Shown: in pieces, positions 2,538-61,437 of the stretch
Layout: every line of letters begins with the position of its first letter
Numbering within the stretch: position 1 is the first letter of the stretch
Made by a program: the position numbers and the translations under genes
Origin: Bisporella sp. PMI_857
Taxonomy: Eukaryota > Ascomycota > Leotiomycetes > Helotiales > Helotiaceae
NCBI GenBank assembly: GCA_021307315.1
Contig: JAJSPD010000109.1
Span: forward strand, 1-64,000
Direction of reading: 5' to 3'
Length of the DNA stretch: 64,000 bases
The notes under the pieces: model-generated
Seen by the model: the letters and a program-made list of their open reading frames with translations, nothing else
Told to the model about the DNA's origin: nothing
Databases searched by the model: none

Positions 2538-3338
2538 ATGCACTTCCTTTCCACCCTCGTTGCGACCTCTCTTATTGTTAGTGGAGTCCTTGCGGCTCCT
2601 CTTCAGAGCGCGGAAGAGGCTGGCTTCGGCTTCGACGCTTCAAATCTGGTTCCAGAGAACTTTACTGCCTCAGACGGTCAGGTCTATGAGATTGTAAGGA
2701 TTCCCATTCGGTCGTTAGTAGCGAAGATGGCACGAACTCAATCGTCCGTCCGTCTAGCTTCGATCTTTCGCAACACGAGATATCAGCTGACAAGTCTTTA
2801 GTGGGTTGACAGCAGCTTTCTCCACCCCAACGTGACCGAAAATAACGAGCCACCATCCTCGAGACAGCGCCAAACGGGCCCGGCTGACCCTCCTGCTCCT
2901 GCGTCCAAGTACCCTCCTTCTTGGGAGGAGAGATCCACGGACCAGAACAAATGCCGTCACAGCTCCTTCGTGGGAGACACCGGTCCCCACGCGCCAACGA
3001 CGGGTCGATGCCGCGCCATTCAAGAATGGGCCAGGACCAACAAGGGCTTCTGGGCAATTGGGTGGAAATCTATCACGCCGGGCAAGTACCGCGCTCTTCT
3101 CGCCAGTCGCAAGAGTGGCACCACGCAATGCCTCTTCGGCGTTAGCCATCAGGCTTGGGAGGTTCGCATCGGCAACTCAGACATCTACGATCTCGTCCGG
3201 GACTCTTTGACAAAGTTCGAGCAAAATTTTAATGGTGTATGGAGAGTTCGCTCGTGGGGATCAGCGGACTGTGACGGAGATTTGGTTCAAAACGGCTCAG
3301 CAGAGTTGAAATGGTGGATGAGTGAAACATTTTCATAG
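2538..3338 (+). CDS. secreted Hce2/Ecp2-type effector (putative necrosis-inducing factor)
   Basis: Two exons, 2538-2693 and 2802-3338. The intron starts GTAAGG and ends CTTTAG after a CTGAC branch-like site, and the join keeps frame, giving about 230 residues. Residues 1-19 form a classic signal peptide ending VLAA. The C-terminal half matches the Hce2 domain: a first cysteine in NKCRHSSF, a second in GRCRAI, then TTQCLFGV, then VRIGNSDIYDLVRDSL and a last cysteine in the SADCDG segment. Known for the family: Ecp2 of Cladosporium fulvum and relatives are secreted, and some cause plant cell death. A Pro/Ser-rich linker joins the signal peptide to the domain. The gene lies between decayed repeats, a usual place for fungal effectors. 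Host role is inferred, not shown; an antagonistic role against microbes is also possible. Confidence 0.85.
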
Positions 3339-19454: not shown

Positions 19455-21158
19455 CTAACCAAGAATGATTCGTTTCTCTACGCCGCCAGCGGCCAATAGA
19501 GCGGATTCCTGCACATGACCTATTGCTAACCGCTCCGCCACACCCCCCTTCCAAGTAACAAGCATGACTAGTACCTGGGATCCAGACATTGGTTCTCGTC
19601 TCCTTGATGGGTAGTCCCATGCCTTGATCTCAGGATGCCACGGCATTGCTCCCAGCCATACAATGTCTAGGGATTCCATATGCATGGGGAGGTTTCGAGA
19701 GCCGATTCCGTACAGGATACCACAAAATGTACCGTTTGATAGCCATATTACTTGGTGTGGAAAGTATTCATCACCGGTGGGTCCTGTTCTAATGAACTTG
19801 AGTCTAGACTCATGATTAGAGTCGAGACAATTAAAGGGTGTTGTTTTCGCACAGAAATCTAAATAGAAAGTGTTCGTCGGGATTGCAAGAGGCTTGCTGA
19901 TATCTAGAGCAGCAAGTAACCCTTCAATCTCCGAAGAGTTTTGTGATTCCTTCTCCACTATTCGCGTGCTCTTCCATGCATTATCTTGCCATTCCAACAA
20001 GGAGACTGTCGAAAGATATGACTTCAAGAGGTGTATGGCAGGAGTTGTTTTCGCGTGGTAAGAATATGAATACAGCGGCAGGAGCGAGTAGTCAGCACTG
20101 CCCGCCCATCCGGCCCACGTCCAACTTGGGATTCGGTACTGTGTCGAGTCACTATGACCGTAAAAGGTAGCTTGTTGTCTTTCAGAGTTTGTCGTCCAAA
20201 GAAGTGACTGGAAAAGAAAGTTTTGAGGGAGACCAAGGTGCATCGTCCACCGAAATCGACCTCGGAGAACTTCACAAATGCCATCGAATGCGGGCAATAT
20301 ATCTCCAGGATAGGTAAAATTTTTCGCAGTGTAAGACTGTACAATGTTCATGTAGATCTCGAATTGTTGATCTGATGTACCATTACCTGTCGTGAAACAA
20401 GAATCAGGCGCCGCTCCTAGAAGGAGAGGGTTCAACAGCCGCAGCCGTGTTGGTAGGATATCTTGAGATTCATAATTTTCCGTGCCGTCTCGGATGCAAC
20501 TCCTATGGCACGCAAAGTACCCTTCCTTGGCTCCGAAGAAGATGCACCGTGTTGAAAGTATTCGCTCTTGGAAAGTCCAGCCCCTTTGGGCATAAGTGGA
20601 GTTGTAAATTTCTTGCTCGAGAGCAATGGCTTTTGGTTCCTGATGTGAGGCTCGATCTGACCTTCGACGACGTTGGGAAAGGGTCGTACTTGCATCCGTG
20701 CCTGTCAAAGGGATGAGCGTAGCCAAGGCACAGGAATAAATTGTCCCCATTGTTCGAATCTGGTCGTGCTTGGAACCGGCATCGTCTTGACAGATGCAAA
20801 GGGAATCCACCCATAGAAACTGCTCCTCCAACTCCGTGGTGATATCCATTGCATCTTTGATGACTCGAGGGATCTGGAGTAGAGCCTCTTCAGTTGCTAA
20901 TGATTCGCCCTCTTGAAGATTAGCGAGATTGGATGTTGTTGTCTGCAGTTGCGATACCTGGCCCCAAACGTAGCTCAAAATAATGTATTTCGGCGCTGTC
21001 CTGAGGGGCGTTTTGACAAGTCGACGTTCCTTGACGTCAATCAACATAATCTCCAAGTCTGGCGCATCTCCCTTGTTCAGAAGTCCTTTGGCACAGCCAG
21101 GGTGAGAGTCAAGGCATCGCGTGAGGTACTCCCGGAGACACAGCGGGTCATCAGGCAT
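19455..21158 (-). CDS. HET-domain (heterokaryon incompatibility) protein
   Basis: Single exon, 567 residues. The HET domain covers about residues 55-205: YIILSYVWG near residue 60, FLWVDSLCICQD near 115, and RGWTFQERILSTRCIFF near 195-210. The remaining 350 residues have no recognised domain but include the aromatic WTWAGWAGS segment common in long HET proteins. HET proteins trigger growth arrest and cell death when genetically different hyphae fuse; the domain is distantly TIR-like. The first ATG is used, about ten residues before the usual conserved start. The frame is intact with no sign of RIP. Confidence 0.93.
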   Translation of the reverse strand: MPDDPLCLREYLTRCLDSHPGCAKGLLNKGDAPDLEIMLIDVKERRLVKTPLRTAPKYIILSYVWGQVSQLQTTTSNLANLQEGESLATEEALLQIPRVIKDAMDITTELEEQFLWVDSLCICQDDAGSKHDQIRTMGTIYSCALATLIPLTGTDASTTLSQRRRRSDRASHQEPKAIALEQEIYNSTYAQRGWTFQERILSTRCIFFGAKEGYFACHRSCIRDGTENYESQDILPTRLRLLNPLLLGAAPDSCFTTGNGTSDQQFEIYMNIVQSYTAKNFTYPGDILPAFDGICEVLRGRFRWTMHLGLPQNFLFQSLLWTTNSERQQATFYGHSDSTQYRIPSWTWAGWAGSADYSLLPLYSYSYHAKTTPAIHLLKSYLSTVSLLEWQDNAWKSTRIVEKESQNSSEIEGLLAALDISKPLAIPTNTFYLDFCAKTTPFNCLDSNHESRLKFIRTGPTGDEYFPHQVIWLSNGTFCGILYGIGSRNLPMHMESLDIVWLGAMPWHPEIKAWDYPSRRREPMSGSQVLVMLVTWKGGVAERLAIGHVQESALLAAGGVEKRIILG

Positions 21159-22306
21159 CGTAAGGACCGATAGCGCTCAGCTTCACCGACCACCAATGCT
21201 GGGGAAAGAAGGTTAAACAACAGATTGACAAGAATGGAACTTGACATAAACTAGAAAGTTATCAGGTTAAACTCGCTTTAATCAACAGTAAATATTTTCT
21301 AGCATCAAGAGATTTTAAAGCATGGGAAAATGCACACCATGACACAGCCTGGAGGCAGTGCTGGGGCTATCACATTATCCAAGCTCAGGCGTCATTTTTG
21401 TTGATGCACAAGCTTGTTACTAGTCGCACATAGCAGATCTACTGTAGCTGTTTATTTGTATTCCTGTTGTCAGAATTGAGAATGCCATTTTCATAACCAA
21501 TCTGTTCCCAGCGCCAATATTGGCCGATGTCAGCTAAATACTAGGGTTTCACCGCCCAGTTCCTTAACAGGCCGGGCAAAATCCCGGCTCTATTATTGAG
21601 GTTTATATAATATTATCAAAAAGGCTTTTAATTGTTTTATAAACTATTGATATGTACTAAAATTTCGCCCCTTTTAGTTATTAGGGTTTTTCCTGGAATT
21701 TTATGACAACTTTGTTGGGGAGGCTATAAATTTTGGGCTTAGGCGCTTGCACAAGAAGCATTTTTCTCGAGGGATATAACATATTCGGTTAGCCCTACAA
21801 ACGTGCGCAAAATACGCGGGCCAGTTGCAGTTGATCCTCTACGATATCAGTGCTAGGTACAGTATACGGCCCGCTCTTCTACAGTAGGGTGCACAAAGTA
21901 TCGACACCCCTTGCTAGTTGCTTCAAGGGGGGTAAAAATGCGTACATTAAAAACTGCAGCCCTGGAACTGCGTATATAAAGTCACGCTAGCAAGGGGGGT
22001 GTCGGTACTTTTTGCGCCGTACTGTAGTTCAATATCCTTCCCTTAGCTCAAGCTGGAACTCACAAAGCCCCGCTGCACTTCAGGGCCGTTTTTTAAATCG
22101 CAGCAATCAAGCCTGCGAGTTAAAGCATATTGACCCAATTCGGTTGATGCAGACATCACACTGACGTGTATTGTAGCACCACTCACAACCATATCTTTAC
22201 CCTACGGCCTGCAGGCACTTCCAACAAAAGCACGAACAAAGACACTTCTAATGAACCTCGTTTCCACTGCAGCCTTCGTCATATCACTTCCGCCGTTCTC
22301 ACTTTG
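21159..22306. other. intergenic with one MITE
   Basis: Gene-free apart from the inverted-repeat element at 21882-22024. This is the shared upstream region of the HET gene (leftward) and the small membrane-protein gene (rightward). Confidence 0.45.
21882..22024. mobile_element. MITE with long inverted ends, TA target site
   Basis: The left end begins CAGTAGGGTGCACAAAGTAT and the right end, read inward, begins CAGTACGGCGCAAAAAGTAC; similarity continues to TTGCTAG for about 38 bases. TA flanks both sides (21880-21881, 22025-22026). At 143 bases it is mostly terminal repeat and could fold into a hairpin. It belongs to the same family as 1667-2028. Confidence 0.75.
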
Positions 22307-30179: not shown

Positions 30180-33100
30180 TACCGCATGAATCAAAGTAGA
30201 CTAGTTGTCTTGAAAAGCATTGGCAAAAGAGCGAAAGCGCTAGTCGATTTACTAGTTAGCGTTTTTAGTTTGGCCGTCTGTCTGAGAGTAGTATGTTGTC
30301 GAAAGCTTGAGCTTTGTGCTTAGTAGCCGGCAGAATTTATTCCAGAACGCGGAAACAAACTGTAGTTTTCGATTTGACACTATAGTAGTAGCAGGACTAT
30401 AATACTTATGAATATGCACTAAGTACAGCTGAGCTATAGTCCTAGCGTCGACTGTTTTGTTGCAAAGAATCGAGATAGGGCGCTTGCTTAACTTGTTTAT
30501 AAACACACAAACTATGTTTATGCTTTTTCGGTCAGAAAGCATGTTTTTGAAATCCACCGATATGTGCTGCTAGGGCCGGTCCGGTATTGGCAGTGAATGC
30601 AAAAGTTCTGGGGTTTTGTTTTTAGGAACTTTAGACTTACGGCAAGCGTGGCAATTGCTGACGAAACGCTTAATATCGTCGTTTATTCTAAGCTAGTAGT
30701 ACCGCTTTTTGATTAGCTTTTTAGTCTTGTTTTGGCCTGGGTGAGCTGTCGATAAGCTACAGTGTGATGCTGTGATTAAAGCTGTACGGGCTAATTCGGC
30801 TACTACAAAACGGCTTTTTTTTTTTAGCAACTCGTTTTCTAAACTGTAGCTTTTTTTGCTTTTTTGACTTAGCTTTCGGGCATAGTCTAGATTTAGAGCA
30901 GTCCGATTTGCTTGGAGGATTTCGTTTATCAAGTTCAGCTGCTTTTCGATTAGCGACAAAAATAAGGCTATACGGTTTATTTCGAGCTTTTGTAGAATCC
31001 GGTAATCAAGCTGTGCTGGAGATAAAAAAGCCTAGTTTCGATTATTTCGCTTTGCTTAGTCCAAGCTTTTGGTCTAGTTTTGCCGTGTTAAAGGGTCGGC
31101 TTTGTTGTGTTTGCCTAGCTTGTAAAATATTTTAAAATGGTATCGAAAGAAAATCTCAGCCCAGCGAGCTTGTTTGGCTAACAGCAGCTTGCTAAACATG
31201 AAATATTCTAAGGCTTTATGGTCCGTAATTATTTCGATGTGATTTTTAGTGCTTTCGAGCTCGGCACGCTAATACTGCAAAGCTTTGACAATAGCTAGCA
31301 TTTCTTTGTTGTAGATTGGGTAATTAGTTTCTGCAGGAGCTATAGTCTTGGAGAAATACTTTACAGAGTGCTACTCGCCGTTAAGTTTTTTCTGAGAAAA
31401 CACGGCTGCTACTACTGTGTCGAAAGCGTCTGTTTCAAGTATACACTGGCTGTTTAGGTTATAGTGAGCCAACAACGGAGCACTTATTAGCATAGCTTTA
31501 AGCTTGTTAAATGCCTGAGTGCACTTGCTGTCAAAAACAAACTTATAATCGGCACGAGTTAACTGGGTCAGCGGTGCCGCTATTTGGCTGTAGCTTCGAA
31601 TAAACCTTTTGTAGAAATTGCAAAATCCTAGAAAAGATTGAACTTTTTTAACTGTTTTAAAAGGTTCTTAGTTTTTGATCATTTGTATTTTGTCGGGGTT
31701 TACTTGAATGCTGTTAGTTGAAATAATAAATCCCAAGTATTTTGTTCGCTTTACACTGAATTCACACTTTTTGATGTCGGCTTGTAAGCCGGCAGTTTGC
31801 AATCGGTCGATTACTTGCTTTACGTGTGCTTTATGCTGTAGCTCGTTTTCAGAGTAAATCAAAATGTCGTCAAGATATGTTGTGCAAATCACATCCAACA
31901 AATCCCGAAAAGTGTTGTTAATATAATTTGAAAAGTAGCCGGCTTATTAGTAAGGCCAAAAAGCAGAACTTTGTACTGGAACAAACTATAGCGAGTGCGA
32001 AACGCTGTGAGCTTTTCAGATTCGGGAGAAATCCGGATCCGGTAGAATGCTTGGCGAATATTTAGCTTTGTAAAAACTTTAGCTTTGCTTAGTCTAGCTA
32101 GCGTTTCGTTAATCAATAGCAAAAGATACCGGTTTTTTTTGGTCAACGAATTCAGTTTCCGGTAGTCGACACAAAAACGAAGTAAGCCGTTCGACTTTTG
32201 TGCAAACAAGACAAGTAATGCAAAAAGAGCTTTGCTAGTAACGACAAATCTTTTTTGCAAATTGGCTGTCAAGTAGTCTCGCATAGTTTTAAGTTCTTCA
32301 ATTGAATGCTTGTTCAAATGGCAAAACCTCAAAGTGTTGTTTTCTGTAAGCTCGATTTTGTAGTCAATGCTTCGGTGTGGAGCTAGAGTATTTGACTCTT
32401 GTTTTGAGAAAAAAGCTAAGCGACTGTAGTAAGTACTAAGGACTTTGTTTTTCAGGAATTCTTCCGGCTTAACAGGCTGCTGTTCTTGCTTCCGATCTTC
32501 GATCATCCGGTCTAAGCCGTCTAAAGTGATTGAAAATAACTCAATTCCTTGCTGTCGAGCGTTTAGCATAAACCCATTACTGGAAATCATTTTGATATCT
32601 AAGTGTGCACGCCGGCCAAGCCGGCTATTTCCCCCTGTTTTAGCGAGGTCCCCTGGCCGAAGCTCCTGAGCACTCCTGTAGTCGTAAGGGCGAGAAAGCT
32701 CGTTAGCCATGATTTTCAGGCTCTTGCTGGTTTCTCGAGCCCAGGTTGGCCCGTGAGCGCTAGCTCGAGTGAGCTTCTGACTAGCTGTAGCAGAGCTCGA
32801 CTTTCCGAGCGTAGGCTGCTTGCTGTTTTGCTGAACGTTCAACTGCTGAACGGCTTGTGTAGCTTGAACGACTGGATGCTGAACAGCCTGTACAGCCTGA
32901 ACGTGCAAACAGTCTTTCTTTGGCAGAGCCTGAGCTAGGTTTACTGTCAGGGTTTTGATCTGAATGCCGTCCAAGCGTTTTTTGTCGTTTCTGGCGATCG
33001 CTTTGTTTCGGCGTAGCATGTTTTGTTGGTGCTGTATTTGAACTTTCTGAGGTCGAACACCGTTTCGTGTATACGTAGCTATAGTTCTGGAATAGGTATA

Positions 33101-33349
33101 TGCTGGTGAAAATTCCGAAGGCTATCGCAGTTGCTGGTAGTGAACATTAATTAAAATACGAAAATAATCAAAGAAATTGCGTCCGAGAATCATATTATAA
33201 GAGCTTAGCTCTAAAATAAGTAAAGGAAAGTTGTAAATCTGTCGGCTATTAATCTCAATATTAAACAAGAGGTATTGAGAGATAAAAGATCCTTTTTTAC
33301 CATTATATCTTTTCGGATAAATAAAATAAGGAAGCCGTTTAGGCTTCAA
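30180..33349 (-). pseudogene. pol: protease, reverse transcriptase, RNase H, integrase
   Basis: Read leftward: a retropepsin-like part (33349-33122) with NMILGRNFFDYF; then after one TAG, in the same frame, a linker and the reverse transcriptase (33019-31668) with LRFCVDYRKLNSL, FTKLNIRQAFYRI and YLDDILIYSENE; then RNase H (about 31660-31100) with ETDAFDTVVAA and TDHKALEYF; then the integrase zinc finger (about 30760-30640, H..H..CHAC) and core (30557-30252, SVDFKNMLSD, YYSQTDGQTKNAN). Interruptions are mostly TAG where relatives have Trp, plus a one-base deletion at about 31930 within the reverse transcriptase. Inactive copy. Confidence 0.9.
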
Positions 33350-33555
33350 TTCGAGAATGCGGCAAAAGTTTAATGCAAAACGAGTGTCAATGAAAACGTA
33401 ACTACTAGCTCCGGTGTCACTTAACGTTTTAGTTTGTACTGCAATACTATTTTTGTAAAAAGTGTATGTTACAGTAAAAGAATTGCCGGCTATTAGTGAA
33501 CTTAAATCAATCTGCTGAAGATCGAATACTTGAGCTCTAAAAAAGGAGCCTTAGT

Positions 33556-34660
33556 TTAGGGCTGTTCGTTTTTCGACTCGTTTGAATCGGCTTTATTCTG
33601 TGTTTCGTTGTCTGAAGCGTTTTTTTGTTCAATTTCTTGAATTTTAGGTATTACTCGAAGCTTTGAGCAAACTTTTGCGAAATGTCCCGTTTCGCCACAG
33701 TTGTAGCAAGTGTTTTGAGAAGGATCCGGAGCTGGGCTACGAGCCGGACTGGAAGTGCTGTCGCGGCCTGTAACTAAGCTTAGGGTGCTATTGCGGAACG
33801 CTGTAGCTGGTCCTGAAGCAATACGTGGCGGAAAGGGTCTGGAAGCTTGTAGAGCTAAAAAGAGTCTCTGGCGTTTAAAAGCCGACAAAGGATTTAACTT
33901 AGCTTGTCGAGCTGGTGCAAATGGAAATTGCCGATAGTATTTTTGCAAGTCAATACTTAACCGTTGACATTTATGTACTAGTTCCTGGTACGTAGAGTGC
34001 TGGCGGTGTGTAAACAAAAGTCGGTTCTGGAATTCTTTATTTAGCTTTTTCTACAAATGGCTTTTTTAGGTCGAAGAAGGAACTCGCTTTACTGCCGCTA
34101 AGCGAACAAACTCAGTATAGAAATCATTGAAATTTTGTGCAGCTTGTTGTTTTAGAGCGTAAAACTGGTTCTCGGCTTTTTCGGCTTTAAAATAGTTCCG
34201 AAAAATTGTGTTCAAGTAAGCTAGCATTTCGTTGACAGAAAGCTAAGGTTTTAAGCTATTTTCGTTATGCCGAGGCGATAAGTAACGTTGTGCTTTTTCT
34301 GTAGTACAGCTAAACACGTAATCGATCCGTTCCTGTTCCGTAAGCTACTAGTCCGCATTTGTTTTAAGCTTTTTTCGTAATAAAGATTTCTAAGCAGTGT
34401 ACGTAAACGATGTGCCGTCGTCTAGAGAGTCTAGGTTTCGGTGCTTCGGAGAAAGCTTTTTTGAGTATGGCCGAGACTTGTGCCGCTTATTAGGCTTAGA
34501 CCTATAAGACTTATAGTTGCTACCTGAAAAAAAGCTGTTCGATAGTAACGCGTCTGGGTCATTTTCTTCGTTTCGAAATGACCGAGGAGTTGAAAGTTTC
34601 TTTACTGAAAGAACTACGTTGCTTGGCTTCGTAGCCGCTAACCGTTTTAGTAACATACGG
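33556..34660 (-). pseudogene. gag-like region with CCHC zinc knuckle
   Basis: The minus-strand frame 34017-33556 encodes a basic, Pro/Ser-rich protein with one C-x2-C-x4-H-x4-C knuckle (CYNCGETGHFAKVC), the nucleic-acid binding motif of Gag. Frames at 34656-34390 and between 34390 and 34017 belong to the upstream part but are broken by TAG and other stops. It would form the virus-like particle; this copy cannot make a full protein. Confidence 0.8.
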
Positions 34661-36918: not shown

Positions 36919-39900
36919 TTAAGGGTCTCCGTAAAGTGTAACCGACCGTCTAGAAGTGGATCCACCGCCGACTTCTGTGTCATGATGCAATCCTTTCTTC
37001 TTCCTAGAAGAAGCATGTCGCAAAGCCTGATACTTTTCCATGCCTTCCTTGTCCTCCAGTGCGCCACAGACCCGCACGAGCCCGTCCAAGACCGCCTTCT
37101 CCATCGCCAGCCCCCTGGTAACCCGGTTAATCTCCCAAGCACTTTCAAAATGTCCCCTTGCCTCCACGAGCTGGCCGTGCTTTTCGTAACTCTCCCCAAG
37201 GAAATAGTGCGCCATCCCCGCATCATGGGACGCCGGGCTATGGTGCAGCTCGACAAGGCGCAGGCACTCCGCGTCGTACTCAATCGACTCAGTCCGTCCC
37301 TGATTGAAGAAGAACCAGGCGAGGTCCTGCACACGCGAGATAACCTCAATAGCGTTCGAGCCGTAGCGTCGGACCTGCCACTCAAAGAGCTTCAGATATA
37401 GCGACTCGGCCTCGCGGCTCACGCCGAGCTCGGTGTACGTGAACGCCAGGTTGCAGAGCGCCGTCTGTGCGTTGCGGAGGTCATATCCTCTTCTTTCCGC
37501 TTCCTCCTTGACACTCTCGAGATGCACTCGGCGCATCTGTGGATCGTAGAGCTCCCATTGGAGGGTGCGGTCGATATTCTCGAAGGCGATCCACGTTGGG
37601 GCATAGAAGATGCAGAGGCGGGCGGCCCGGGCTGTGGCGAGCGCGTCCTGGAACCACCGGATCGATGCCTCTGCATCGGGCTCCTGCGTCCCCCGGAGGA
37701 CCTGCGCGCACACAATCCAAAACGGGTTTTGCAGGCGCCGGAAGCCGTCGAGGGTTTCGAGCAGGGCCGTGTTTGCGTCCGGGGCGAGCGATAGATCCTG
37801 TAACATCAAAGCCTTCTCGTAAAGGAGTGTGTAGTATGCCATGCCCCGCCCAGGTGTGGACTCCATCGTATGCGCGATCGAGTCTTCGATGAGGGCCATT
37901 GCCTCTTGTGGCCTGCCTCCCGATCCGAGTAGTCGGGCGATATCCCCTATAGGTTGGTACACCTGGGCGTGACGGAGGGTATCTATGTCGCATTCCCAAA
38001 GGTCCGCCGCCGGCCCCAGATCTGCCTCGCTCAACTGATCGCACCAGACAGGTCGGACTAGAGGACCGCGCCCTTGGAGTCGCTGGCTGAGGACGTTCGC
38101 GTGGAGGATAAGTCTCTGCTGGCTTTCGGCCCACTGTAATGGCGCATACAAGATGGGACAGGCCCACGCTATGGCCGAAGCGGCGGCATTAAGCAACTCT
38201 GCATCGGTTTCATATGCCTCATATATACAGAGCCAGTCAAATACAACCCGGTGCATGGAATACACACCGCTATTGTTCGTCTTGTCGATTAGTGACAGGT
38301 CCAGCAGGATCCTGGCAGTGGAGTAAAAATCCAGCTTGGACTTGAAGACTTTTGAAATCCAAGCCGGGGCTTTGTTCACGAGCCTTGTGTTCTTCAGAAG
38401 CTCGTAGTCAAGATCAAGAGGATCAAAATATGCGAACAGATGGAGCAGTTGGTACGCACAACGGTGTGGTCCTGTATTGTGTTCGTTGGCCATACGCTGC
38501 TTTAGGATATTAACGGACGTAGTCCACGTTGTGCGTATGCTCGCGCGCTCCGGGTCATTAGGCAGTGCTTCTGGTGGAAGCATGTCGATGACCTTGCGCT
38601 TTGAGTTCTTGTATAGCTCAATGTACTCTTCGACGTCGACTCGTAGTGACTTCATGAGCTTTCCCGCCTGAGATATGGCTAGAGGTAAGCCGCCCAGATC
38701 TTCGACAAGCTTGAGTTCCATCGTGGCTTTGTAAAACTCAGAGTTAGCGCTGCTTAATATGTTTAATATGGGCATACCTTGAGACCCTAGTCTGCTACCG
38801 AGATACGTCACGGCTTTCATTACATTTCCCGCTGTCGACGCTCTGGTAAGAAGCTCAATTGATTGTATTTCGTCTAGTTCCTTAAGATGCTTCACCGTTG
38901 CAGCTATAGGAAGAGACGCCAAGCGGGTCGTGACAATGATGAAGCCGCAGTCCTTTGCTGGGAAGAAGGCGTCCAATGCGAAACCTCCCAGATCGGTCGG
39001 CTCGAGGTCAACATTATCATATATCAACAACCATCTCTCGTTCCCTTCGAGTGAAAACCATTCCAAGGTCTTGGCTGTGATTCCATCCGGCGTCAAGTTT
39101 GTAACACCATCTCTTTCGGAGTGCGACTTTGCATCATCGGCATCGCTTATGGCGACTCGTCGAAAGACCTGCAGGAAACTCTGGAGCAAGGCATCTTTGC
39201 TCGAGCCGTCGATAAAGAAAATGGATGAGAAGGTTGTCTTGTGGCGCCGAGCGAACTCAACAGCAAGCTGGGTCTTACCCATTCCACCGAGACCACATAT
39301 TACATAGGTCTTTCGGCGCGATAGCTCTAAGTCTGAAAGCAGACAGAGTTCCATGTCTGTGATAAATTCTTGACGGCCCACGAAGCAATTGATCAATGGA
39401 ACCTTATCGAGATGGAACCCATGGTTGAAGCCATCCTTCCAGATCGACCCTGGAGTGGCCGTTAGTAGATTGGTGGACCATGCCGGCTTAGACTCACGCT
39501 TGTGCTGCCCGCGACTGGGCAAGGTAGGGGTATGAGTAGCGATGCTATCGACCTTTTGTTCCAATGCATCGAGCCTCTTCCTAGCCAGATATCAGGTCAA
39601 TTAATCCAATTGAAATTCCACGATGGTGCGTACACCGTAGATGTAGATCGTGTAGCCTGCATACTCTCGACATGCTCTGACAGTACCTGGTGCGTCAGCG
39701 TTTCTGATCGTTTAGCAAAGGCAAAATCAAGGCATGGGCGATGTACCTCTTTGATATTCAGACGCATCTTCGCGAATTAAAGCCTCGCCAATCTCCTTTT
39801 TGAGCCGGCGAATCGCATTTTCCTTTCCCTCGCCGTATATCGGCGGCATGAAGACACCGAAAATGCCCAGAAGACAGTATGCCCAGTCTTCCTTGCGTGT

Positions 39901-40521
39901 GGTCTGGCGCTTCTCCGCCCATTTCAATCGCTCGTCAACGCCGAACTGAGAGAGCGGCGTTCCCCGCAACGCCGGAACGGCAATCCCTGTTATTTCGTGA
40001 ATCTGTTGCTCTAGAGATCTTTTGTCACCAAGTAGCTGGCCTTCACGCGTGAAGAACTTGACGGATACTGGGGCAAGAAGCTCTTGGAGCGTCCAGCCTC
40101 TAGTAAACCATCTGCTCGCTCGAAAATTCGACTCCCACAGGAGTTCGCACTGTTCGCTGTCCAGCTCATGGTTAGTGATTGAAATATTTGATAGGTACAC
40201 ATAGCATCGAGCCGCATCGCGGTACCAGCGGAACATAGAATTTATAGCCTCTGAGAGTTCGTTGCTATTCGATTTGTCGATGCAGCAAGTGTCGACCCAA
40301 AAGTATCGTAAGCCGTCACGTCTCGCTTGTTCTGAGCAGAACCTGATCTTGTCATAGCCAGCCTTGTCCTTACCAGTCCCGCCTACCAAGTCCTTGAAGG
40401 TGACCTCTTCGGTATCTGGTCCCCACGTGTGTGAAAGTATGGCATACGCGGGGATATGATCGCCGACTAGGTCTTCAGTCAGGCGAAACTCGCAATCATG
40501 ACTACGTTCCAAGAGTCGCAT
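36919..40521 (-). CDS. HET / NB-ARC / TPR receptor (NLR-type)
   Basis: Three exons proposed: 40521-39747, 39676-39634 and 39580-36919, joined in frame to 1159 residues. The HET domain is at about residues 20-165 (AYAILSHTWG, YFWVDTCCIDKS, RGWTLQELLAP). A short linker exon leads to an NB-ARC NTPase: P-loop GLGGMGKTQ at about 369-377, Walker B-like WLLIYDNVD, IIVTTR and GLPLA. The last 450 residues are helical TPR-like repeats (ALCNLAFTYTELGVSREAES and others). The start is taken at MRLLERSHD, the usual opening of HET-NLRs; an upstream ATG at 40734 would add a poly-Asn/Lys tract from a microsatellite. Such proteins act as cytosolic non-self sensors, oligomerising through NB-ARC and signalling by HET. 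The middle exon is inferred. Confidence 0.88.
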
Positions 40522-40669
40522 TGTGTCTTGTGAAAGATCATTCGTCAATGGTGACGGAGGGATCGCGGGAGGCACAGAGTGGATGAATCTACCTTCCGTC
40601 AGCCGAATTGGTGATCGCTGGCACGTGCTCCAAGAGCTCGGAAAATGTGGGGTGATATCTGCAGCCGGT

Positions 40670-40706
40670 TTCTTCTTCTTCTTGTTGTTGTTGTTGTTAT
40701 TGTTGA
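40670..40706. repeat. trinucleotide microsatellite (TTC)n(TTG)n
   Basis: Consecutive TTC then TTG/TTA triplets. Read on the minus strand in the extended frame of the HET-NLR gene they would code poly-Asn then poly-Lys. More likely it lies in the 5' untranslated region. Confidence 0.75.
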
Positions 40707-40734
40707 AGAAAGGCAATTTATTTCGCTTCGACAA

Positions 40735-41474
40735 TTCAATATAAATACTACTTTCGATAAAAGTGTTGCAAGCATGAAGTTGTTCTATGCTATTAATTTA
40801 GGATGGGATGCAACTTTGGGTTAGTGCAAATTCCTAGTTTATATGTTGTGGGGTGTGCAAATATCCGCACCAAATTTCCGATCCTAAGAGCACGTGCTAG
40901 AGCTCAATGCATTAAGTCAGCTACCTCTCTGGTGAACACGCGGATTGCAAGCTGCTGTAACAGAAACAAACTTGGAGTAAATTAGCAATACTACTAGTGG
41001 CGTAGCGGCAGTGTTTTTCGCTAGCAGAACTTCTCTAATCAATTAAACTATATAGATTAAACTTTTGTATGCTATATTTAGCATATATAATTTAACACCT
41101 CTATATATTACAAAATTTTTTAAAAACAATTAGTAACTTTTTAACAAGTATCTGACATAAACATGTTAACAAAATTATAGGAATCAGGAATTGTTGTTAT
41201 ATTTTATACATGTTCACTTTAGCTCAAGTAAACAAAAAAACAAAAAGTAAAAAGGACTTTTCGATATACAAATTCCCCCCCAAAAAGGGGGGGGGATGCA
41301 AGAAGACCGCAACGTAGAAAAATAGGCACAACTTCATTTCCGCTATGCTTTTCTCAATGTAATCCTTGTCCTAACCATAAAGATCTAAATTGAACGCCAT
41401 AACGCCTTTTCAAACTGCCACCTTCTTTCTACGGCCCACCTCATCTGCTCTGCCACGTACAGACATCTCTCTAT
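40735..41474. other. intergenic, AT-rich
   Basis: No gene is visible. It contains a GC hairpin at 41275-41295 and AT-rich sequence at 41000-41250. Confidence 0.45.
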
Positions 41475-54977: not shown

Positions 54978-57900
54978 ATGGTCACATCCTTGACCCCCGA
55001 TGACAGGGGCGAAAATGACTTGCTCCTGAAAACGTCCGAAACAGTAATGCAGATGGCAGAAATTGCTCGAATCAACGAGGTCAACGAGGAAGCAAGAGTC
55101 TTCTACTGCCACTTGGGGTTCCATTGCGTCAGATTCCGAGACCATGTAAGGCGCACATGCCAGACTTCGTCTCTACTCAATAGGGAACTGGTCAGCCAGG
55201 CTCTGCGCCAACTCGGCTCTCTGGTTCCTGAAACTGGCCTCCAGAAACTGCAATCATACCCTGTCACGTTGGAATTTCGTCTCGGCGCTCTTAACCTTCA
55301 CTGGAGCGAGATACGAAAGCAACACGAGGACGCGAAACTCGAATTCATTAGAAGATGGTTGAAGCTTGGAGCGTCCGACGAGCATCGCAGCGAAGTGGAC
55401 AAAGCACTGGAAAGTTGTGCGGACGACCTCGACAAGCAACAGCCCAAGCACTCTTTCAAGAAACCCGCGGAGATAATCGCATCCCCGGACATCAGCGAAC
55501 CATCATACACCGTCGGGAAGGTGGCTCAATCGATATTCGACGCGCTGTTGGATTGCAAGGGATGCTCCTGCTCGAGCCAACACAAGTTTGGAGCCAAGCT
55601 CGAATTGGGCACTTACCGGAAATCCGAGAAGAAAATCGATAAGAAACCAGTCGCCAAATATATTCGAAACCGTAATCGAAAGCTCTGCGGCTATGACGAT
55701 GCAGCCGGAGAGGAGATCAATTTCGACATGTTTCTTTCTATGGAACAGGATTGGCACGAAGTTCGCGTTCAAACCGTCAAAGAGAGAGTCGTTAGGTTTG
55801 CTATTTCTAGTGAAGTGGTGCTGCCCAGTGGAGGCAACGCTGCTGGTGCATCTACGAAGGTGGAGAAACTCTGCAGACCAATTGCCAAGATGAAAACGAA
55901 GGCTTTGCAGCGCCTCGTGTTGAAGCTCACCAGCGGCCAACTCTTTGAGATAGGATTTGAGAAAAGCAATTTCCGGATCGACAAGATTGCTGAGCCTATT
56001 TCTCTATCTCGGTGTTTTGAAGAGCGGCACGAATTCTTCACAGAGAAGACGAAACGCATCCTTTCGCTCATCATTGGCTACACAGTTCTCCACCTGAACG
56101 ACACTTCCTGGCTTCAGCCAGGGTGGGGTTCTACAAACATCAAATTTTTTCAGACAATTTCTTGCAAGACTCCTTTGCGACCATTCATCCAAACCCAGCT
56201 GCCCAAGGCCAGTCCCGCCGGCGCGATTCCCGATTTCCAACTCGTCGTGAACGGTGGTGACGGCGCTGACGATAGCTCGGACGTGCTAGATTCAGGACAT
56301 CGCTGTCCGGCATTGGTTGCCTTAGCAGTGGTGCTGATGGAGGTTTACTTTGTCAAGCCATTCAAAAAGCTAGCTGAGATGCATAACGTCCCGCTAATTG
56401 AGGAGTCCAGTGGCCGTATCACACTCATTGACGTCGATCAGGTGTTCAATGGCGTTGAGGAAATTGAGCAGGAAGGATGGCGGGCCCATATCCCCGAGGA
56501 CTCTCCTCTACTTACCGCTATAGACAACTGCCTGGATGGCGAGCTCTGGGAAGACGACGAAGGCGAGGCCCTCGACAGTGGAACGCTCATGTCGCGGATT
56601 TATCAACAAGTTGTTCGGCTCCTGGAGCTCCACCTGACTTGCGGCTTCAGCCAGATACCTCTGGACGGCATCGACAAGTATGCAAGGGATTTGGATGTTG
56701 GGAAGTGGGGTCAGGTCATAACCAGCCATGAATCAGATGGCCACGCGGCTACTCTGCCTCCGGGGGTGCTCACACCTACACACACCCCGCCATCCGCGCC
56801 TTTGCTGCTTGTTCCAAGCCAAGCCGGCGTCCAATATTCGCAGTCCAATTCTCTGGTCTCATATCCGGCACAGTATCCGGACTCCATGCGGAATCCTGAG
56901 GTCGATTACAAAGCATCTCAGTTCTTTGATGATGAGATGGGTGACGGGGAGTATTCTGTCGCTAAGTAAGTATCTCAATCGCAACTCTGTGAGCTCCCTG
57001 TAATGGCCTACATTTGTTTATGAATGAGATATGCCTGCTGACTTCCCATTCAGTAGAATCGAGAGATACCTGACATGGAGATCAGAATACGAAAAAGTCT
57101 ATGAGAGGTTCATTAAGGCACACCTCCCAGGCTCTCCATCACAACCTGTTAAAATTGCGATTCTGGACACGGGTATCGATCGAGATCACTACGCCTTCGA
57201 AGCTCGCGAGGTGAACCTCAAGGAAATGCGCAACTGCTACAACGAGTCCCAGAAGAAAGTTCCAGATCGAAATGGACATGGCACTTTCGTTACGAGCCTG
57301 ATACTCGACTATGCCCCAGACGCAGAACTCTACGTCGTCAAAGTTGCGGACAAGGAGAACTTGAGACCCGACGCCAAGATTGTTGTGAATGTAAGCGGCT
57401 GGATTGGTATTGCTTCCCTACACAACATTCAGAAACTGACATACACAGGCGATCAACCACGCAGTTGACAAATGGGATGTGGACATCATTTCGATGTCGT
57501 TTGGGTGGCCCTCCTCTAATTTTGAAGGTTACGACGCCCTCGAAGCTGCTATCGGCAAAGCATACAGCAAGAAAGTCCTCATGTTCGCTGCTGCTGCTAA
57601 TAGTGGTGGCCGACTTGGTCGAGCGTATCCTGCCAGCAGCTCGGAGGTCATCTGCGTCCATTCGACCGACACGTATGGGGGCGCATCGAACTTCAGCCCG
57701 ACCGCCGAGCCTAACTCCATTAACATTGCGACGGTCGGCGAGTGGGTCCAGTCGGCATGGCCGATGCTGCTTTGTGGCGACAAGTCGAACCCAAAGTGCG
57801 TCGAGTCCCGGTCAGGGACGTCGTATGCGACGCCTATTATTGCGGGGATTGCGGCGTTCCTGCTGCAGTATGCGCGACTGCATTTACCGGGGAGTGCGGC

Positions 57901-58081
57901 ACTGGCGTTGAAGCGGAAGGAGAGGATGGAGGCTCTGCTAAGGAGATGTGCCGAGCGGGGCCCCAATTACAATCCGAGGGATGGATATTTCTACGTTGAA
58001 CTGAGTTTGAATCACCATAATCTTTTTGGAGGGAAGTTGGAGTGGGTCAATTATGAAATTTCGAAGACATTGAGGACATAG
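54978..58081 (+). CDS. DUF7580-like / subtilisin (S8) protease fusion, HET-Q2-like
   Basis: Three exons, 54978-56965, 57054-57390 and 57449-58081, with clean GTAAGT/GTAAGC..CAG introns in correct phase, giving 985 residues. Residues about 1-600 resemble fungal DUF7580 proteins; the part near residues 370-470 (GYTVLHLNDTSWLQPGW, ALVALAVVLMEVYFVKP) is reminiscent of a degenerate kinase-like lobe. Residues about 690-970 are a subtilase with all catalytic marks: AILDTGID (Asp about 701), GHGTFV (His about 738), AAANSGG (oxyanion Asn about 826) and SGTSYATPIIAG (Ser about 900). There is no signal peptide, so it should act in the cytosol. It is convergent with a gasdermin-like gene, stop codons 114 bases apart. 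By analogy with HET-Q2 the N-terminal half may sense a trigger and the protease may cleave the gasdermin; this is inferred. Confidence 0.9.
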
Positions 58082-58195
58082 CAAGCATGTTTCGGATACA
58101 TGTATTTCAGCGTAGTGACACAAGACCAGTACTGAAACCTTTTCGTCCTAGTCACAATTTACGAAGCAAACGGACTTCCTTCTTCTGCCTGTGTG

Positions 58196-59197
58196 TCAAT
58201 CATCAGAGTCTTCCTCCTTTGGAATCGCGCAGACCACCACATCGCCATCATCCACCAGCTCCACTGTGTCAAACCCTTCACTCTCCGCATCTGGATCTTC
58301 GACCTTCAGGACAGACAGTTCCGGGCCTTTGACCTGCTCCTCCTCGTTGCCCAACATAGCTCCCTTGCGGTACTCCTCCTCGCTCACCACCTGCCCCGTC
58401 GCCTTACCCACAAAGATCTTGCTCACGCGAAACGCAAACACAAAGTCGTCGCTGCCCTCCCATTTTGTGATGGCTTTTTTGCCTGCTTTGCCCTCTATAC
58501 CCGGACCGCCACCAATAGGTAAGATGCCGCCGCTCCATAATGTGCCATCGACTTCAAAGGCAAGAGCGCCCCCAACGGTGCGGGACTTGAGCGATTTGGC
58601 TTCGACGCCAGTGACGACTTTGAGGCCGGTAATGATATAGACTGGCTTGCGGTAGCCAGAGATTTGGAGGAAGCGGCGGACGTCGTCGGCTTCGATGCAC
58701 CTCTGGAAGTAGGACGGTGTTGGAAAGAATTGTGTGGTCTGAATGGTTTCGAAAGAGAATGTGTCCTCATCACTGGTATTATCAACGAGATATAGTTAAT
58801 TTCCACTTAAATAGCACTAAGAGATACTTAGAGAGGAGCAACTCGGGCTTAAAGAGAGCGCATTAAATCATAAGTTACGTTCTTGATGGTGTTGGGTGCT
58901 CGTAGAGGCAAGGCTCGCCTACCTATTGTCCATTTCGGCGTCGACATCGACACCAAACCCAAGAACGCTGAGGAACTTGGTCAGGATGGAGAACTTTCCG
59001 CTCCGCCACTTCTCTTTGGTGTATTGGACAGTCATTTTTTTCGTCGAGAAGACATCAGAGCCCTCTGGCGGCGGAGCGCAGTGGAGGGGTCGTTCAGGCC
59101 TTTTGACCGAGGTGATGACGTTGCCTAGCTTGATTGGACCACCCGGGGGATAATCCCACGTCGGAGCGTAGAAGAAGAAGCATTGGCAATTGGCCAT
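58196..59197 (-). CDS. gasdermin-like pore-forming protein (HET-Q1/RCD-1-like)
   Basis: Two exons, 59197-58923 and 58772-58196, with a GTAGGC..CCAG intron of 150 bases, giving 283 residues. The N-terminus is hydrophobic (FFFYAPTWDYPPGGPIKLGN), and FSILTKFLSVLGFGVDVD follows at about 72-89. The core resembles the gasdermin N domain: VYIITGLKVV (136-145) corresponds to V-Y-V-V-T-x-x-L in animal gasdermins, then a Gly-rich hairpin-like stretch, K-K, and WEGSDDFVFAFRVSKI (196-211), matching the G-S-x-x-x-A-F-R-V end of that domain. The last 65 residues are acidic (EEEQVKG, EDPDAESEG, EEDSDD) and could be the inhibitory tail removed on activation. It would form plasma-membrane pores and cause cell death. 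The call rests on motif order by eye, supported by the neighbouring subtilase. Confidence 0.8.
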
Positions 59198-60689: not shown

Positions 60690-61437
60690 CCATGATCGAG
60701 ATCTTGTATCAAGATATAGATACTCAAAGTAACACGTCTAGCTATTACAGAATGCTGGTGAACAAAAGTACTTCACATACATTACTATCGACCCAGGAGT
60801 CTATGAAATTGATGACCTGTGCTTCCCGCAAGGGACTGGAACTATGGCTGCATCTCGCAAACCGTGGGAGGTCTGACATCGTTCTTCGCGAAAACCGCTA
60901 AGAAAAATTTTCCTTCAATCAATACTCTGGCATAAAAAGTCCTACGAATGCCTTTCTTTGAAAATTGGAGAGAGACTCAGGTCAAACGTCTACATAGCAT
61001 CTTCTCCGCAATCCGAGAAACCAATAGTTGCTAAATTTGCAAGATTCTACTGGGAGATTGGATACTATATCGCCGAGACCGAAGCGTATTCATGGATAGA
61101 CGGCCACAATGTCAGCCCAGAGTTCCTAGGGCCCTTAACTGAAGATGGCTGGGTTGTCGGGTTTCTTATCGAACACGTTGATGGTCGCCATGCTACCATT
61201 TCAGGCCTTCCTGCCTGCGAGGTCATTTTTAAACGATTGCATGGTTTAGGCATTCTTCACAGCGATCTGAACAAGCACAATTTTTTGGTTTCGGAAATGG
61301 GCGCTATTCTCATTGATTTTGAGACGGCAAAGCGGTTGGATAATAGCGAGGCTATGAAAATGGAAATGGAGGGATTAGAGGCGCAGCTGTTGGACGAGTC
61401 TGGAAGTGGTGGAGTGGTTTTGGAGGACGACACTTGA
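60690..61437 (+). pseudogene. kinase-like protein, N-terminus frameshifted
   Basis: The C-terminal 150 residues are intact in one frame from 60955: LKIGERLRSNVYIASSPQ, IVAKFARFYWEIGY, ETEAYSWIDG..PEFLGPLTEDG, then the catalytic-loop-like HSDLNKHNFLV and the DFG-position IDFETA. This is the fungal kinase-like (aminoglycoside-phosphotransferase fold) family. Upstream the homologous N-terminus is present but spread over frames: YYRMLV, then YFTYITIDPGVYEIDDL, then DWNYGCISQ..FFAKTAKKNFPS, then back. Frame changes lie near 60757, 60830 and 60925. Either a pseudogene, or only the C-terminal frame is used. Confidence 0.65.

Follow-up and report, generated by a model that had tools for sequence, protein, structure and literature searches.

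A gasdermin gene facing a DUF7580–subtilase gene in Bisporella sp. PMI_857: a likely two-gene cell-death unit that recurs within the genome

The convergent gene pair

We analysed the first 64 kb (the window) of the 108-kb contig JAJSPD010000109.1 of the fungus Bisporella sp. PMI_857, which has a genome of 55.6 Mb. In this window a gene for a 283-residue gasdermin and a gene for a 985-residue protein, in which a DUF7580 domain precedes a protease domain of the S8 (subtilase) family, face each other across a short gap. Pairs of the same kind occur elsewhere in the genome, and we think that they are likely to be cell-death units. The product of the longer gene is called the sensor-protease below. 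The genes are located as follows.

54978..58081, forward strand: sensor-protease gene (DUF7580 and S8), 985 residues; exons 54978-56965, 57054-57390 and 57449-58081
58196..59197, reverse strand: gasdermin gene, 283 residues; exon 1 59197-58923, exon 2 58772-58196
58082..58195, no strand: intergenic gap between the convergent stop codons, 114 bp, from the gene models

Both gene models were built by hand from sequence and homology. The protease gene has introns of 88 and 58 bp, both GT..AG; many alternatives would keep the frame, and the sites closest to consensus were taken. The intron of the gasdermin gene (58922-58773, 150 bp) has the ends GTAGGC...TACCAG, and across the splice junction it gives a gap-free alignment to four paralogues that are themselves open in one frame at this place. 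In the paralogues on C7 (105-114 kb) and C274 the best-scoring intron likewise stops right before the matching AI-x-x-A motif; in the C252 paralogue the best-scoring acceptor is elsewhere than at this motif. An earlier sequence-only reading of this DNA had claimed complete convergent gasdermin and S8 genes with stop codons 114 bases apart. The distance is exactly that, and the presence of a convergent pair of gasdermin and sensor-protease genes is confirmed.

Judged by sequence and profile comparison, the 283-residue protein belongs to the HET-Q1/RCD-1 family of fungal gasdermins. A single-sequence search of structures gave matches to RCD-1-1 (E-value 9.8e-8), RCD-1-2 (9.6e-7) and the HET-Q1 pore (2.6e-6). 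A profile of five paralogous gasdermins matched the HET-Q1 pore (9uv9) with an E-value of 5.9e-22, profile positions 7-218 being aligned with chain residues 8-216 of 232. These searches bear out the gasdermin N core that the earlier reading had seen. The bacterial gasdermin model bGSDM from PADLOC matched the window protein at 3.5e-8, and the five-paralogue profile reached only 0.16-0.22 against bacterial gasdermin structures. The parts of the protein are these.

58394..59179, reverse strand: gasdermin pore-forming core, about residues 7-218, from the profile match to 9uv9; includes the intron 58922-58773
58352..58354, reverse strand: Leu232, candidate P1 residue of an activating cut
58196..58351, reverse strand: acidic C-terminal tail, residues 233-283 and stop codon; putative inhibitory peptide, by comparison with HET-Q1

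An acidic tail behind the core had also been claimed, and it is present: the last 70 residues contain 22 D/E versus 6 K/R. All five gasdermins are acid-rich at the C-terminus (19-23 D/E among the last 70 residues in four of them, 14 in one). Leu232 is invariant across the five, and in each of them acid-rich sequence begins shortly after it. Subtilases often accept large hydrophobic residues such as Leu. We therefore propose Leu232 as a candidate for P1 in the activating cleavage; it falls within the interval of about residues 212-235 where the cut had been expected.

The longer protein is divided as follows.

54978..55700, forward strand: N-terminal region, residues 1-241, with no Pfam family and no strongly hydrophobic start
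55701..56636, forward strand: DUF7580 (PF24476), residues 242-553, Pfam E-value 4.5e-25; pseudokinase-like, putative sensor
57148..57883, forward strand: Peptidase_S8 domain, residues 695-920, Pfam E-value 3.2e-30; includes the intron 57391-57448

The DUF7580 match (89.4 bits) is well above the curated cut-off of 27 bits. Catalytic residues D701, H738 and S900 and the oxyanion N826, which were placed by the D, H, S and oxyanion Asn motifs of subtilases, are all in the S8 domain, in agreement with the claim that no catalytic residue is lost. The four positions are retained in five of the five aligned S8 paralogues, one of which was assembled from open pieces. About 600 extra N-terminal residues of DUF7580-like type had been attributed to the protease; the DUF7580 assignment stands, while the length has to be corrected to about 690 residues, with DUF7580 confined to residues 242-553.

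Recurrence of the pair and its surroundings

Matches to DUF7580 were observed at 20 places in the genome; with pieces of the same gene merged they make 18 loci, one of them below the curated cut-off. S8 follows DUF7580 in six of these loci (the window, C252, C274, C13 and two on C7). The gasdermin searches yielded five full genes, plus a weakly matching sequence on C189. The locus counts for both families are lower bounds. Five of the six gasdermin-like loci, including all five full genes, adjoin a DUF7580-S8 gene; given six loci of each kind, only 0.006 gasdermin-like loci would be expected by chance within 5 kb of such a gene. The architecture is therefore a family in this genome and not a singleton, and the pairing of gasdermin and protease that had been claimed from the window alone turns out to be a recurrent two-gene unit.

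The five cassettes (gasdermin plus DUF7580-S8 gene) are arranged in three orientations: convergent in the window and on C252, divergent on C274, and one gene after another in both cassettes on C7. The intergenic gaps are 114 bp in the window and about 350-951 bp in the four other cassettes, for which the gene ends are approximate. Between cassettes the gasdermins are 18-30% identical and the S8 parts 27-41% identical; both partners are old. That the linkage persists despite divergence and rearrangement is the strongest evidence for joint action of the two genes. On C7 (124 kb) the cassettes L052 and L050 are found near opposite ends, with another DUF7580 gene at 76 kb.

A scan for domain families covered 20 more open frames in the window, each 150 residues or longer. 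The region 36922-40797 (reverse strand) has a HET-domain match (1.5e-15) immediately followed by NB-ARC, DUF7779 and TPR matches, and is probably one HET-type NOD-like receptor (NLR) gene. A second HET-domain protein (1.2e-28) is encoded at 19458-21176 (reverse strand). Matches to reverse transcriptase and zinc knuckle at 31892-34050 (reverse strand), in AT-richer DNA, are likely to represent a retroelement. Given the two HET-domain, the NB-ARC/TPR and the reverse transcriptase matches, the pair has further fungal genes of the self/non-self kind as neighbours. We also observed a match (2.1e-15) to Hce2 (PF14856), a family whose members are described as effectors that putatively induce necrosis, at 2802-3335 (forward strand), and a small kinase-like fragment (Kdo/APH/Pkinase, best E-value 6.8e-6) at 60877-61434 (forward strand), about 1.7 kb from the gasdermin start.

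DUF7580 as a probable relative of protein kinases

Ten of the twelve DUF7580 loci that lack S8 were scanned with Pfam at a loose threshold. In three of them the residues matched by DUF7580 are matched by Pkinase as well, with Pkinase E-values of 3.2e-6 (L024), 0.013 (L027) and 0.0016 (L028). In L022 DUF7580 overlaps a weak match to a Kdo kinase family (0.0021); the same frame also has a Pkinase match of its own, nearer the start. No kinase family was detected at this threshold in the remaining six.

We then have a direct comparison, by hhalign, of 11 DUF7580 domains (five of the S8 type and six others) with 18 kinase domains of the genome. DUF7580 was aligned with the kinase C-lobe at an E-value of 2.2e-4 (score 37.1, probability 45%); among the controls, 60 column shuffles scored at most 12.8, the reversed alignment 12.5 and the unrelated S8 family 17.7. 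Via five weakly matching bridge proteins the E-values were 2.1e-16 from DUF7580 to bridge and 2.5e-15 from bridge to kinase, with scores of 119 and 106 versus maxima of 19.2 and 17.8 over 40 shuffles. Since it was the DUF7580 model that picked out the bridge proteins, only the kinase side of this link is independent. Among the best 60 of its 399 matches in the PDB, the bridge profile had LIM kinase (2e-6), IRAK4 (3.4e-6) and MLKL (4.8e-6). The profile alignment locates the position of the catalytic loop in the window protein.

56106..56150, forward strand: stretch SWLQPGWGSTNIKFF, aligned with the kinase catalytic loop HRDLKPENIL; the catalytic Asp is missing

The window DUF7580 has SWLQPGWGSTN at the HRD position and RPFIQT near that of DFG. 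Kinase catalysis by DUF7580 is unlikely because both motifs are replaced. Our reading of DUF7580 is that it is a kinase C-lobe that has degenerated into a pseudokinase-like module.

This module is attached to different N-termini. L024 (G000:C68:668554-669057 region) has a HeLo domain followed by the kinase-like domain that matches DUF7580 and Pkinase, which is an MLKL-like layout. Five other DUF7580 proteins without S8 have a hydrophobic start, with a best 19-residue Kyte-Doolittle mean of 1.6-2.1 among readable starts; the corresponding values in the five S8-type proteins are -0.1 to 1.1. In neither group are the gene starts certain, and no sequence similarity was found among the starts that were compared. 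A HeLo-like origin of the protease N-terminus was considered and is not supported: residues 1-241 did not match any Pfam family, and hhalign scores of their profile against the N-termini of other DUF7580 proteins (12.5 and 14.6) were below the shuffle maxima (15.4 and 19.0). The score against one HeLo domain was 13.1, a value without shuffle control.

Protein-kinase matches were seen within 5 kb in at least four of the five bridge loci (L022, C13:128953; L026, C37:20025; L024, C68:668554; L027, C244:24897). The bridge gene on C13 also has a kinase match inside the same open frame. Among the 13 other DUF7580 loci there is such a neighbour in at least one, the C252 cassette, at 3.9 kb from the DUF7580 domain. 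The expectation is about 0.02 per locus; the pattern was noticed post hoc, among the matches listed. The combined picture suggests one regulatory module that serves gasdermin-cutting proteases and also proteins that kill directly at the membrane, the latter perhaps together with a partner kinase. The position of a kinase beside the bridge genes recalls the kinase that adjoins an MLKL-like protein.

One could speculate that DUF7580 is a fungal MLKL-type pseudokinase switch of two death pathways, in which HeLo or hydrophobic N-termini lead to direct necroptosis-like death and S8 leads to gasdermin-mediated pyroptosis-like death. This proposal is tentative, and we would sooner doubt it than rely on it. 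Architectures, 18 in number, have been assigned for about a third of some 1500 gasdermin-linked proteases (PMC10197012). If the proposal is true, a two-pathway switch could cover part of the roughly two-thirds that have no assigned architecture.

Proposed mechanism, alternatives and known systems

We consider it likely that the pair is a fungal two-gene cell-death unit, in which the pseudokinase-like half restrains the S8 protease and the protease frees the gasdermin pore on signal. The pseudokinase-like half would keep the protease inactive until this half has bound a signal of non-self or of damage, or else a host protein in modified form. Once released, the protease would cut the gasdermin at or near Leu232. 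With the acidic tail of roughly 51 residues gone, the N-terminal core would insert into the plasma membrane and form a pore there; death of the hyphal cell would then contain a virus, a parasite or a fusion partner that is incompatible. Tail removal by the neighbouring protease is proposed because of the similar reaction in Podospora anserina, where the S8 protease HET-Q2 cleaves HET-Q1 at F238 and so removes its 40 C-terminal residues (PMC10989679). A 2025 review (PMC12881547) counts the stimuli that activate the diverse fungal cell-death sensors among the major open questions; should DUF7580 prove to be a pseudokinase-like regulator, five natural pairs would make the question testable.

Several observations weigh against such a unit or against parts of it. 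A Pfam scan of the 283-residue gasdermin returned no family. The DUF7580 profile alone had no significant match in the PDB: the best was a COMMD-like protein (0.073), and the other 38 of the 39 matches were chains of BIK1, B-Raf, IRAK4 and SymRK (0.38-0.94). A single-sequence AlphaFold model of protease exon 1 had a predicted local distance difference test score (pLDDT) of 34, so that the kinase-like fold of the sensor half rests on sequence profiles; the sensor role itself is assigned to DUF7580 by analogy only. Distances of the partners correlate (r 0.73), which favours coupling, but the support from five pairs is weak, 7 of 120 relabelings giving a value as high. Two loci break the pairing. 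The DUF7580-S8 gene L053 (G000:C13:1015747-1017521) has D, H and S in place, although one of its pieces scores under the cut-off for Pfam S8 (0.054). A search of 7.5 kb around it did not find a gasdermin; this protease is either without its usual target or has a target too divergent for detection. The gasdermin-like sequence L054 (G000:C189:8489-9303) is spread over two frames, being broken or split by an intron, and no S8 match was found in 9 kb, other protease types not having been searched for. Both loci were counted as misses in all tallies.

The signal may enter by another route: the kinase-like half could be an autoinhibitor or a scaffold, with the trigger coming from a third protein such as an NLR or a phosphorylating kinase. 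We regard this as a serious possibility, if an unlikely one. MLKL, which the bridge profile matched, is switched by another kinase (PMC12881547), and there are the kinase-like fragment at 60877-61434 in the window and the kinase matches near the C252 DUF7580 domain and the bridge genes. However, among the matches listed, the four remaining cassettes had no kinase at a distance of up to 5 kb from DUF7580, with flanks not systematically scanned for other shared genes.

The pair could also be a polymorphic heterokaryon-incompatibility locus like het-Q, with variants that differ by strain and cause death upon hyphal fusion, without sensing of microbes or damage. het-Q1/het-Q2 do operate as an incompatibility system (PMC12881547, PMC10989679), and the window has two HET-domain matches, one of them beside the NB-ARC/TPR match. 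We nevertheless find this reading unlikely: the het-Q locus holds either het-Q1 or het-Q2, whereas here both partners are open side by side on one contig, and five divergent copies resemble a repertoire of sensors.

It is quite improbable that the locus is a decaying relic without working output. Birth-and-death evolution has been reported for the family (PMC10197012), the C189 sequence is unpaired and in two frames, and the model of the protease gene at C7:2-11 kb required poor joints; both window genes, however, have open frames, GT..AG sites and all catalytic residues. A chance neighbourhood, with the protease acting on another target, hardly deserves consideration, for although S8 matches are common in the genome (41 places), the DUF7580-S8 type is rare (six loci found) and stands beside five of the six gasdermin-like loci.

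Taken as a unit in which the sensor-protease would free the gasdermin, the pair had been assigned to the HET-Q1/HET-Q2 type. As chemistry this fits: the gasdermin of about 280 residues, the short C-terminal piece to be removed and the S8 subtilase partner are alike. The gene arrangement does not fit, since HET-Q2 is a protease of 388 residues (PMC10989679) and het-Q1/het-Q2 are idiomorphs of one locus (PMC12881547), while here a sensor-protease of 985 residues adjoins the gasdermin on one contig. Because the genes adjoin and a long N-terminal half precedes the protease domain, we place the pair with the HET-Q2-like (Q2L) clusters and not with the het-Q locus. In these two-gene clusters a fungal gasdermin gene adjoins a gene for a multidomain S8 or CHAT protease; the window has an S8 domain with intact catalytic residues and a gasdermin gene within 10 kb, at 114 bp.

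The sequence-only reading had considered the architecture unusual and maybe undescribed, which is not supported. Protease genes are found near about 80% of fungal gasdermin genes and S8 genes near about 63% (PMC10197012), and fusions of gasdermin-linked proteases with "other predicted kinase-like domains" are on record (figure legend, PMC12881547). With S8 clustering and kinase-like fusions both reported in reviews, the window pair belongs to a known kind. The Q2L sensors named in the parts of PMC10197012 cited here are of the ANK, TPR, WD40 and NLR types; in the window the corresponding part is DUF7580. This domain was not found by name in the literature searched, which did not include the original het-Q paper or most subscription journals, nor was a pseudokinase sensor explicitly joined to S8 found there.

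RCD-1 of Neurospora crassa has a homologous gasdermin core; unlike the window pair, it is set off by the meeting of two allelic forms, with no proteolysis (PMC12881547). Bacterial gasdermin systems, in which bGSDM is accompanied by a protease, share the two-gene layout, and the PADLOC bGSDM model recognizes the window protein. They differ in that the window gasdermin profile scarcely matches bGSDM structures. Bacterial gasdermin systems use other sensor types.

MLKL and the fungal HeLo/HELL-kinase proteins have a kinase-like domain related to DUF7580, as the bridge profile indicates, and L024 adds a HeLo domain to this likeness. MLKL has a killer domain of its own, whereas in the window a protease is joined to the kinase-like domain and killing would be left to a separate gasdermin. 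If DUF7580 is a regulator of the pseudokinase-like kind, it would link, within one fungal genome, a gasdermin pathway with the kinase module, of MLKL-like type, that serves another death pathway.

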